Assembly: GCA_016125215.1 (NCBI GenBank) | Contig: WGMF01000041.1 | Span: 1-64,000, forward strand | Origin: Phycisphaera sp. | GTDB lineage: Bacteria; Planctomycetota; Phycisphaerae; Phycisphaerales; Phycisphaeraceae | Reading direction: 5' to 3' | DNA: 64,000 bases | In this document: positions 45,479 to 51,210 of the stretch, one piece after another | Layout of the letters: each line of letters starts with the position of its first letter | Position numbering within the stretch: the first letter of the stretch is position 1 | Made by a program: the position numbers and the translations under genes | The notes under the pieces: generated by a model | Databases searched by the model: none | The model's input: the letters and a program-made list of their open reading frames with translations, nothing else | What the model was told of the DNA's origin: nothing

Positions 45479-46657
45479 TTAGCTCTTAAGCGTGAGCGCT
45501 TCACGCGCCGCGAGGGCCTTGGCGCGGGCCTCTTCGGGCGTGGTGCCCAGGACGGTCAGGTGGCCCATCTTTCTTCCCTTCCGGGGGTCGTTCTTGCCGT
45601 AGAGGTGGAGCTTGACATCGCGGTGATCGAGCAGGGCGTGCCAGTTGGGTTCGCCGTGCTGCCAGAGGTCGCCGAGCAGGTTGGCCATCGCGGCGGGGGC
45701 GTGGAGTCGGGTGGAGCCCAGGGGCAGGCCACAGATGGAGCGGACCTGTTGCTCGAACTGGCAACTGACGTGCGCGTCGATGGTGAGGTGGCCCGAGTTG
45801 TGCGGGCGGGGGGCCAGCTCGTTGATGAGCAGCTTGCCCGACCGGGTGAGGAAGAACTCGACACAGAGGACGCCGACGACGTTGAGTTTTTCCACGGTGG
45901 CACGGGCGATGTCGATCGCCTGGCGTTCGATCTTGTCGCCGAGCATCGTGGGCGTGACGCTGGTGTCGAGGATGTGGTGGACGTGGGTGTTGAGCATCGG
46001 GCCGAGGCTGGTGAACGAGCCGTCCATCCCGCGCACCGCGACGACGGAGAGTTCGCACTCGAAATCGATGAAGTCTTCGAGGATGGCTTCGTCGGTCTTG
46101 AGGGATGCCCACGCATCGCCGGCGTCGGTGGGTTTGCGGATCACGCTCTGGCCCTTGCCGTCGTAACCCCACGAGGCGGTCTTGAGGACGCCGATCGGGG
46201 TGGGGGATGCAGCGCCGCGCTGCACGAGGGTGCGGTTAAGTTCTTCAAGTGAACGGACGGGGGCAAAGGGCGTGACGGGCAGGCCGGCGTCGCGGAGGAA
46301 GGTTTTCTCGCGCAGGCGGTGCTGGGTGGTGTGCAGCACGGAGCCGGCCGGTCGGACGGGGGCGTATTTAGCGGCGGTATCGGTGGCCGCGGCGCTGACG
46401 TTTTCAAACTCGAACGTGACGACGCTCACGCCCTTGGCAAACCTGGCCACGGCGTCGAGGTCTTCGTAGTCGGCGTTGATTTCGAGGTCGGCCACCTGGC
46501 CCGTGGGCGTGTCGTTGCCGGGGACGAGGACGTGGACACGGTAGCCCAGGCGACGCGCAGCGATGGTGAACATGCGCCCGAGCTGGCCGCCGCCGAGCAC
46601 GCCGAGCGTCTGACCGGGGAGGATGGGGGCGATCGCAGGGGAACTACGCGTGGTCAC
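45479..46657 (-). CDS. purK: N5-carboxyaminoimidazole ribonucleotide synthase
   Basis: 392 residues of the ATP-grasp family: nucleotide fold [21 protein letters not shown]-grasp core with GYDGKGQ and [17 protein letters not shown], and [12 protein letters not shown]. It carboxylates AIR with ATP and bicarbonate in purine synthesis, passing the product to PurE. It overlaps purE by four bases (ATGA). It ends convergently with the ABC exporter, with a repeat between them. Confidence 0.93.
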
Positions 46658-47139
46658 TCGAGAGTGTCCCCGAGGACGCGCTGCGTCTGTTGTTCACGGT
46701 ATTTGTGGAGTTTTTGGCGCAGTTCGGGGCGGGAGTTGGCCAGGATGGAAGCGGCAAGCAGCGCCGCGTTTTTGGCGCCGGACTCGCCGATCGCCAGCGT
46801 GCCCACGGGCACCCCGCCGGGCATCTGCACGATGGACAAAAGCGAGTCCATGCCCGAGAGCGCCTTGCTCTGCACCGGGACGCCGAGCACGGGTAAAACG
46901 GTTTGCGATGCCACCATCCCCGGCAGGTGTGCGGCGCCGCCCGCGCCGGCGATGATGACCTCCAGACCGCGCGACTCGGCGGTCTGTGCGTATTCGTTCA
47001 TCCTCCCGGGGGTGCGGTGGGCCGAGACGATCTTGCACTCGTGTTCGACGCCCAGCGAGTTGAGCACGTCCGACGCGTGGCGCATGGTGTCCCAATCGCT
47101 CTTGCTGCCCATGATGATGCCGACGAGAGGCCTGGTCAT
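46654..47139 (-). CDS. purE: N5-carboxyaminoimidazole ribonucleotide mutase
   Basis: 161 residues. [27 protein letters not shown] and [16 protein letters not shown] are the class I PurE signatures (the catalytic His lies in the AHRTP/AAHLPG motifs). It moves the carboxylate from N5-CAIR to CAIR. First gene of a purE-purK pair; divergent from ppc with 120 bases between. Confidence 0.95.
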
Positions 47140-47259: not shown

Positions 47260-50052
<2,793 letters not shown>

Positions 50053-50064
50053 ACTCGCTGCGCC

Positions 50065-50940
50065 ATGTCTTCCTACAACGCCCCCAAGCTCTCGGCTGTG
50101 CCCTTTGACAAGATGCCCCCGGCGTTTCACGCGCGGGCGTTCGGCGTCGAATACATCCGCCTCGAAGAGCCCGACGGCGGCGAGTTGTATGTCACGCGCT
50201 ACGGCTGGCCGGTGCTCGAACACCTGATGGCCGACCAGTGGTACCTCCACAACGCCTACGCGGTCAGGGGCACGAAGCTGCCGGGTGCCACGGGCAGTGT
50301 CTACCGTGTGCCGACGATCAATAGGCGTGGCAGGCGGCGCGACCTGGTGGTCAAGTTCTCGCGCTTTGCCCAGGACGTGCCGATCTACGTGGCGACCAAC
50401 GCGCTGGACATGGTGCCCCCCGAAGCTTTGGCCAACGCCGAGTTCAACGGCCCGTTCGAGGAGTTCGGCCAACTCATGCGTCTGCGTCGCCCGCACCCCA
50501 CGCTGCCGGCGGTGCGCACCAAGCGGCCTTTGGCCATCTACTCCCCGCCGCGCGAGTACCCGCTCTGGCAGCTCGGCCGAACCAAGGGTCGGTTCATCCA
50601 TTACCAGAAAGACCAGATCGACTCGCAGCAGCAGGACCCGGGCACCAGCGCGATCAACCTCAACATCCAGAGGCAGTACGTGCTGCTCTATCAGTGGGTG
50701 CGCGGCGAGAATGCGGAGTATTACTTCGATCAGGGGTTGCTGACGAAGGATGAGCTTCACAGCCTGACGCAGCGCGTGGTCGATGCGTTGTCGGCCAGGG
50801 GCTTGGTGGTGCTGGACAACAAGCCGCGCCACTTCATCCTGCGTCCGAGGCACGGCGGTGATGAGCCGATGCGTCGCAACGGTGAGTTGGTTTACAACCT
50901 GGTGGACTTTGAGCTGCTCAAACCCAAGGCCACGCTGTGA
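50065..50940 (+). CDS. Divergent protein kinase-fold protein cotranscribed with ppc
   Basis: 291 residues of unnamed family. Features in kinase order: a Gly-rich loop (GTKLPGATGSVYRV, residues 69-82), a VVKF lysine (Lys97), a Glu-rich helix (FNGPFEEFG, 127-135), a catalytic-loop-like LDNKPRHFILR (Asp251, Lys253, Pro254), and VDFE (Asp281) where DFG is expected. The usual catalytic-loop Asn is His256. It could be a weak or pseudo-kinase. I do not know its substrate. It begins 12 bases after the ppc stop, so a link to PEP carboxylase is suggested by position only. Confidence 0.65.
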   Translation: MSSYNAPKLSAVPFDKMPPAFHARAFGVEYIRLEEPDGGELYVTRYGWPVLEHLMADQWYLHNAYAVRGTKLPGATGSVYRVPTINRRGRRRDLVVKFSRFAQDVPIYVATNALDMVPPEALANAEFNGPFEEFGQLMRLRRPHPTLPAVRTKRPLAIYSPPREYPLWQLGRTKGRFIHYQKDQIDSQQQDPGTSAINLNIQRQYVLLYQWVRGENAEYYFDQGLLTKDELHSLTQRVVDALSARGLVVLDNKPRHFILRPRHGGDEPMRRNGELVYNLVDFELLKPKATL

Positions 50941-51119: not shown

Positions 51120-51210
51120 AACCGCAGATTTCGCAGATGGCACAGATTCAAGGCAGGTATTCCCGATCTTCAATCTGTATCGATCTGTGAAATCTGCGCA
51201 ATCTGCGGTA
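51120..51210. repeat. 9-nt-period palindrome, locus 3
   Basis: Left arm ACCGCAGATTTCGCAGATGG then CACAGATT (51121-51148); right arm AATCTGTATCGATCTGTGAA then ATCTGCGCAATCTGCGGT (51172-51209), an inverted copy with one extra unit. Confidence 0.85.

Follow-up and report, generated by a model that had tools for sequence, protein, structure and literature searches.

A patchily distributed family of atypical kinase-like proteins, encoded at some loci beside enzymes of the PEP/oxaloacetate node

The interconversion of phosphoenolpyruvate (PEP) and oxaloacetate sets the fate of carbon, which either enters the citrate cycle or returns to sugars. Plants are known to have a dedicated kinase for this step: their PEP carboxylase kinase (PPCK) is a complete Ser/Thr kinase domain, and the phosphosite motif of plant PEP carboxylase (PEPC) is SIDAQLR; to our knowledge, no dedicated bacterial kinase for the same step is known. 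Other kinase groups are also relevant here: WaaP is a family of LPS sugar kinases, and the UbiB/ABC1 kinases are characterized by a KxGQ extension and an Ala-rich nucleotide loop. PRPK/Bud32 and Rio2 lack an activation loop, retain helix F and display ATPase plus autophosphorylation activity (PMC7864929). Our literature searches on bacterial or planctomycete PEPC kinases, PEPCK phosphorylation, atypical kinases and the genomic context of planctomycete ppc, which left most subscription journals outside their coverage, retrieved no protein of the kind described below, and the matches listed for the phosphorylation of bacterial-type PEPC were plant work by title.

The gene, its motifs and its family

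The window analysed here is a stretch of 64,000 nucleotides from a Phycisphaera sp. contig (WGMF01000041.1, positions 1 to 64,000). It contains an intact ORF at 50065-50940 (+), with an ATG start and 291 codons, which encodes a kinase-like protein of 291 aa (P0001), a single-domain member of the family delineated below by family search and residue conservation. As the first-pass annotation had stated, this ORF starts 12 bases past the stop codon (50050-50052) of ppc, and this upstream gene (47260-50052, +) encodes a full PEP carboxylase (PF00311, E 1.8e-275; the Pfam PEPcase match exceeds the cut-off at 47314-50049). On the other side of ppc, purK and purE are divergently oriented (45479-47139, -). 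Downstream of the P0001 gene there is an imperfect inverted repeat (51121-51209), whose arms of 27 nt are 89% complementary and 35 nt apart.

The same annotation had read a glycine loop, VVKF, LDNKP and VDFE in the order expected for a kinase, and all four motifs are indeed found in this order between residues 72 and 283. The glycine-loop-like LPGATGSVY (residues 72-80; 50278-50304, +) is followed by VVKF (residues 95-98; 50347-50358, +) with its beta-3-type lysine K97, by an alpha-C-type glutamate that had gone unnamed (E133; 50461-50463, +), by LDNKP (residues 250-254) within the catalytic-loop-like DNKPRHF (D251, K253 and H256; 50815-50835, +), and by VDFE (residues 280-283) within VDFELL (50902-50919, +), which holds the DFG-equivalent D281 and lies six residues before the C-terminus. 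In an alignment with a bacterial Ser/Thr kinase, the counterpart of the DNKPRHF segment is the HRDIKPxN loop. In an alignment of 39 family sequences, E133, D251, K253, H256, D281, E283 and L284 are invariant, as are T44 and G47 in the N-terminal region; position 97 is Lys in 37 sequences and Arg in two, T76 is kept in 37/39, Y80 is Tyr in 36 and Phe in three, and residue 282 is always F or Y. Conservation of the loop glycine G77 is lower, with Gly in 21 sequences, Ser in 16 and Ala in two. A chance match to kinase motifs was rejected on the basis of this conservation across 39 sequences.

The family comprises 39 loci in 38 genomes and its distribution is patchy, with 32 loci in the phylum of the window (Planctomycetota). 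A search of 101 related genomes revealed relatives in 11, and the GTDB collection yielded five loci (Phycisphaeraceae, Elusimicrobia, Omnitrophota, Acidobacteriota and Planctomycetota). Profile searches, whose genome samples overlap, gave matches in 13 of the 392 genomes sampled from the phylum of the window (true family members in 11), in 19 of the 298 from its class (true members in 16) and in two of 193 from the phylum of the Omnitrophota genome (a true member in one), the genomes with weak kinase matches (two, three and one, respectively) being excluded from the family counts; the family was also present in two of 247 genomes in the phylum of the Acidobacteriota genome and in three of 16 in that of the Elusimicrobia genome. 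Second-domain matches of the same proteins (e.g. L073-L083, L104) were not counted as loci, and G239 and G701, which are one genome, as well as G028 and the genome of L012, were counted once. P0001 had no match in the plasmid collection, and a role as a defence gene was rejected, since four members gave no PADLOC match.

Two architectures are found. Fifteen of the 39 loci are single-domain, with lengths of 289-324 aa for the twelve whose start was chosen (L085, L087 and L111 were taken as open frames). The other 24 are tandem, a degenerate second copy following the first; the 22 of these proteins whose second copy is complete (some counted as open frames) measure 566-706 aa, the second copy of L045 ending at the contig end and that of L047 being broken by an in-frame TGA. 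In every one of the 22 complete second copies, the catalytic Asp, the DFG-type Asp or both are missing (pattern matching read 19 and 20 of the 22, and the remainder were read by eye), so that the second copy resembles a pseudokinase. It keeps a PFE(E/K) motif in the alpha-C region in 22/22 and the loop His in 19/22. In seven loci (L015, L018, L020, L021, L024, L051 and L084) the profile matches the second region in two distinct places, the last match covering approximately positions 216-287; this is a further partial C-lobe repeat, weakest in L051.

An atypical kinase-like protein with a short C-terminus

P0001 had no match in Pfam or NCBIfam at E up to 10, no Pfam kinase family exceeded its cut-off in 23 members, the eight matches of P0001 among PDB sequences (E up to 10) included no kinase, and of two family profiles searched against PDB sequences one retrieved only RNase HII (E 1.6) and the other nothing. 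All profile matches outside the family with E below 1e-3 were examined (the searches of the Acidobacteriota and Elusimicrobia phyla gave none), and six out of six, weak as they are, correspond to kinases or kinase-like sequences: L052, L053, L097, L098 and L099 carry HRDIKP or HADMKP loops and are Ser/Thr kinases, L097 and L098 being near-identical and from one genus, and L114 is a kinase-like stretch inside a 4025-aa frame. When the family was aligned by hhalign with the five Hanks-type kinases, which had been pre-picked by the profile, a probability of 94 was obtained (E 1e-7, 128 columns), with a register that is convincing only for the C-lobe half, residues 204-263, which includes the catalytic loop. 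The protein-kinase-like signature is moreover present in order, with the Lys in 37/39 sequences and the Glu, the catalytic Asp and the DFG-type Asp each in 39/39.

Structure prediction points in the same direction. An AlphaFold2 model of P0001 built with six sequences (pLDDT 63.4, pTM 0.65) places K97 in a strand (91-99) and E133 in a helix (131-139, where pLDDT is below 50). The best 50 of its 1721 Foldseek matches are all titled kinases or kinase complexes, from PknA at the top (E 4.4e-5) to Rio2 (4gyi) in row 50. Among the 50 VIA matches listed, 41 name a protein kinase and the other nine are Rv3197 (four), MSMEG_1954 (three), WaaP and PVX_084705, all of which we take to be kinase-fold proteins; Rv3197 is presumably an ABC1/UbiB-type protein and MSMEG_1954 likewise a member of the UbiB/ABC1 family (PF03109). 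The Z scores of the matches listed are close, Rv3197 (7.2) being tied with Wee1 (7.0), DAPK1 (6.8), WaaP (6.6) and PknB (6.5), and according to the tool a Z of 7.2 may reflect merely a common arrangement. For a second model, of another family member (pLDDT 53.6), the matches listed were mostly kinases, with none at E 0.001 and a best value of 2.3e-3. With Foldseek TM values of about 0.3 and Z below 8, structure alone would not settle the fold. Residue conservation, the profile matches and the fold searches nonetheless agree, with kinase matches for both models and few exceptions, and the kinase-like fold proposed in the first-pass annotation thus holds up, on models of medium-low confidence (pLDDT 63 and 54) and middling scores; taken together, these residues, profile matches and structures make a kinase-type fold very probable.

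The way in which these proteins end is unusual. P0001 stops six residues after DFELL, and the residues following the DFG-equivalent number 5-10 in nine of the 15 single-domain members and 15-38 in the other six, and in the 22 second copies that are complete 3-19 residues follow the corresponding point. An activation segment with helices F-I thus cannot be accommodated; judging from these lengths, helix F would not fit in P0001 and may be possible in the six members with tails of 15-38 residues. An ordinary kinase that had been truncated or frame-shifted was rejected, since the 15 single-domain members and the 22 second copies share such short tails. The position of the Mg-binding Asn in the catalytic loop is His in 39/39. 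The same D-x4-H-F loop is seen in WaaP-like proteins from this phylum (L150, L152, L155 and L157), and hence this His alone does not indicate inactivity. The family is an atypical kinase-like protein.

Genomic association with the PEP/oxaloacetate node

The first-pass annotation had coupled the protein to PEPC, and in this narrow form the link is not conserved: ppc lies directly upstream of the family gene only in the window (12 bp) and in L026 (42 bp to the first ATG, with ppc running into the contig end), that is, at two of 39 loci and in two of the nine carrier genomes having ppc. Since strict adjacency is so rare, "coupled to PEPC" is too narrow. What stands is a broader link to the PEP/oxaloacetate reaction, with GTP-PEPCK at three loci and DUF4914 (PF16260) at three. 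GTP-PEPCK is upstream of the family gene by 106 bp in L048, where it runs into the contig end, and by 58 bp in L051. In L046 it lies 221 bp downstream and in L043 approximately 5 kb away; it was identified by PF00821 and PF17297 in L046 and by homology in the other loci. DUF4914 is directly upstream in L013 (3998-5944) and L014 (4079-5968), both with a 1-bp overlap, and in L111 (1726-3630; 43 bp), and lies about 4 kb off in L025 (1157-3067). Altogether, 8/39 loci adjoin ppc, GTP-PEPCK or DUF4914, all on the same strand and with the family gene just downstream in seven, and 31 flank none of the three. Most members of the large tandem clade have none of them in the analysed stretch, and a tblastn search of the neighbour proteins over all 39 stretches, some of which end at contig ends, revealed no further case. 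Loci with the linkage occur on both sides of a split with 98/98 support, which is the deepest one when the tree is rooted at its midpoint. At greater distance, PEPCK is 13 kb from the family gene in G071 (one contig) and 42 kb in G700 (Acidobacteriota), and a malic enzyme gene is directly upstream of the family gene in L024.

A rough binomial estimate, which assumes a 4.4 Mb genome and one gene per 1.05 kb, gives about 3e-11 for five of 39 loci being flanked by ppc or PEPCK by chance, and 1.5e-6 or 2e-4 when three or two independent lineages are counted. A proximity test combined over the 38 genomes gives p 1.3e-6 with DUF4914 included, and is weak (p 0.015) for ppc and PEPCK only, with 29 genomes set to p=1. 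The co-occurrence of genes is consistent with this association. In the class sample of 298 genomes (taken as the same draw for family and PEPCK presence; the listed members agree), 15/16 carriers have GTP-PEPCK, as against 147/282 of the other genomes (p 0.001, uncorrected for descent). GTP-PEPCK is present in 35 of the 38 carrier genomes and the remaining three have DUF4914, so that at least one of ppc, PEPCK and DUF4914 occurs in 38/38; 29 of the 38, several of them incomplete, show no ppc.

In an annotation-free clustering of neighbour ORFs, PEPCK, DUF4914 and one ABC-transporter-like family lead with four loci each, followed by purE, purK and two unannotated families with three loci each. 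The underlying gene calls are crude (the family gene was missed in L019 and some ORFs are spurious), and Pfam annotation covered 50 neighbour proteins; the 20 neighbours annotated for later loci have no common theme. Purine genes recur, purE-purK following the family gene in L014 and being divergent to it in L044, with purC after the family gene in L111, and a second link of the family, to purine synthesis, is possible. Other direct neighbours include argininosuccinate synthase, tRNA synthetases, SulP-type transporters with a STAS domain (L049, 5519-7237; L024, 8274-10136) and a carbonic-anhydrase-like gene (L021).

DUF4914 is encoded in 12/38 carrier genomes and adjoins PEPCK in G006. A collinear alignment with GTP-PEPCK spans 186 columns (25% identity) and takes in the P-loop as well as an Asp-Asp motif. 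This alignment is weak, with P 0.032 and an HH probability of about 2 (1.6) for 16 versus 12 sequences, and P 0.0058 and an HH probability of 6 for a smaller set of four versus three; the controls gave P 0.57 (DUF4914 and ppc) and 0.53 (PEPCK and ppc). DUF4914 is thus a possible, unproven relative of PEPCK. A literature search, with most subscription journals outside its coverage, found no paper naming DUF4914.

Possible function and comparison with known systems

Because the association is with the PEP/oxaloacetate reaction rather than with PEPC itself, we predict that the family is an ATP-dependent kinase-like regulator of the enzymes interconverting PEP and oxaloacetate, with a probability of roughly 0.5. 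By analogy, such a regulator is perhaps a kinase, provided that the conserved Asp and Lys carry the same significance here as in other proteins. The family protein would be made together with the enzyme encoded beside it and would bind Mg-ATP; in the window, P0001 would then phosphorylate PEPC, or bind it in an ATP-dependent manner, and so tie PEP carboxylation to the energy state. Without an activation segment or C-lobe helices, the protein would need its conserved N-terminal ~70 residues and region 102-152 to recognise a substrate. In the tandem proteins, the degenerate copy may serve as an inactive partner controlling the first. A more specific version, in which minimal kinases that end after the DFG site and are often fused to a degenerate copy phosphorylate PEPC, GTP-PEPCK and DUF4914 across lineages, as an independent counterpart of the plant PEPC kinase, is more doubtful. 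A bacterial PEPC kinase in the strict sense is possible for the window and L026, and cannot be general because 29 of the 38 carrier genomes show no ppc.

Beyond the weak PEPCK-DUF4914 signal, ppc, PEPCK and DUF4914 show no common origin, and no shared phosphorylation site is therefore evident. A metabolite common to the PEP node would explain this set of neighbours more easily than a protein target, and the family could accordingly be a small-molecule, eukaryotic-like kinase; the absent activation segment and the D-x4-H-F loop shared with the four WaaP-like proteins fit this idea. It appears quite unlikely, however, since no extra substrate-binding subdomain follows the DFG site, the WaaP-like comparison yields an HH probability of 0.5 (rough), and K253 is kept in 39/39, a basic catalytic-loop residue being associated with peptide phosphorylation in PMC4702295. 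With His in place of the Mg-binding Asn and no C-lobe, phosphotransfer may be lost. Regulation by binding, through an ATP-binding switch or ATPase comparable to Bud32 or UbiB or through a pseudokinase, would agree with this His in 39/39, with the nine single-domain members ending 5-10 residues past the DFG-equivalent, with the ATPase activity described in PMC7864929 for PRPK/Bud32 and Rio2 without an activation loop, with Rv3197 as the best VIA match listed (tied), and with the degenerate copy that tandem members already include. The full conservation of a catalytic-type Asp and Lys argues instead for catalysis, and the WaaP-like proteins with D-x4-H indicate that the His need not mean inactivity, so that regulation by binding without phosphotransfer is unlikely.

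Finally, the neighbours might be incidental and the role of this kinase-like protein unrelated to PEP metabolism. The 31 loci that flank none of the three genes could be taken in this sense, as could purE/purK near the family gene in the window, L014 and L044, purC in L111, and the SulP transporters, argininosuccinate synthase and tRNA synthetases that also adjoin it. The chance estimates, the co-occurrence with PEPCK, and the clustering, which puts PEPCK and DUF4914 on top, level with one ABC-transporter-like family, without recourse to annotation, make this quite unlikely. A kinase-like protein encoded beside PEP-node enzymes suggests an unrecognised regulator of a central metabolic junction; if the family exerts this control, the adjacent genes would constitute a testable regulatory pair encoded side by side, and DUF4914 would gain a likely place in metabolism. 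If true, this would also reduce the minimum portion of the kinase fold known to suffice for a functional protein.

When compared with known groups, the family shares with the bacterial Hanks-type Ser/Thr kinases (PknA/PknB, PF00069) the succession of beta-3 Lys, alpha-C Glu, Asp with a Lys two positions on, and DFG-type Asp; of the six weak matches that the profile gave outside the family, five are kinases of this type. P0001 differs in lacking the His-Arg of HRD, in having His for Asn and in its DFE (DFE/DYE in the family) for DFG; it has no activation segment, no APE and no space for helices F-I, and possesses an extra N-terminal module. Membership in this class was rejected, given the loop VLDNKPRHF rather than HRDxKPxN and the lack of any PF00069 match in 23 members. 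Bud32/PRPK and RIO likewise have a kinase core without an activation loop and, in contrast, keep helix F (PMC7864929), whereas P0001 and eight other single-domain members end at most ten residues past the DFG-equivalent. The WaaP/Kdo kinases (PF06293) share the D-x4-H-F catalytic loop, and 6dfl is among the VIA matches listed (Z 6.6), but they have DLH where the family has DFE. Membership in the WaaP class was rejected: PF06293 had no match in 23 members at E up to 10, and a rough hhalign comparison with WaaP-like proteins, for which seven of 12 loci were used, the other five failing a motif-and-length filter, gave a probability of 0.5 over 40 columns. Since PF06293 matches 143 of 149 genomes of the phylum, it is useless for a presence/absence contrast. 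UbiB/ABC1 proteins (PF03109) provide the best VIA matches listed (Z 7.2, tied), and PF03109 matches one of 15 members at E 0.037, far too weakly for membership; P0001 has no KxGQ and its loop is GATGSVY, not Ala-rich, and this class was also rejected. As for PPCK, the parallel that the first-pass annotation had drawn with plants finds no support as kinship beyond the general fold, because P0001 has no activation segment and SIDAQLR is absent from the PEPC of the window. If our best reading holds for the window, P0001 would act on the same enzyme as PPCK, which is a complete kinase domain; the P0001 gene directly follows ppc.
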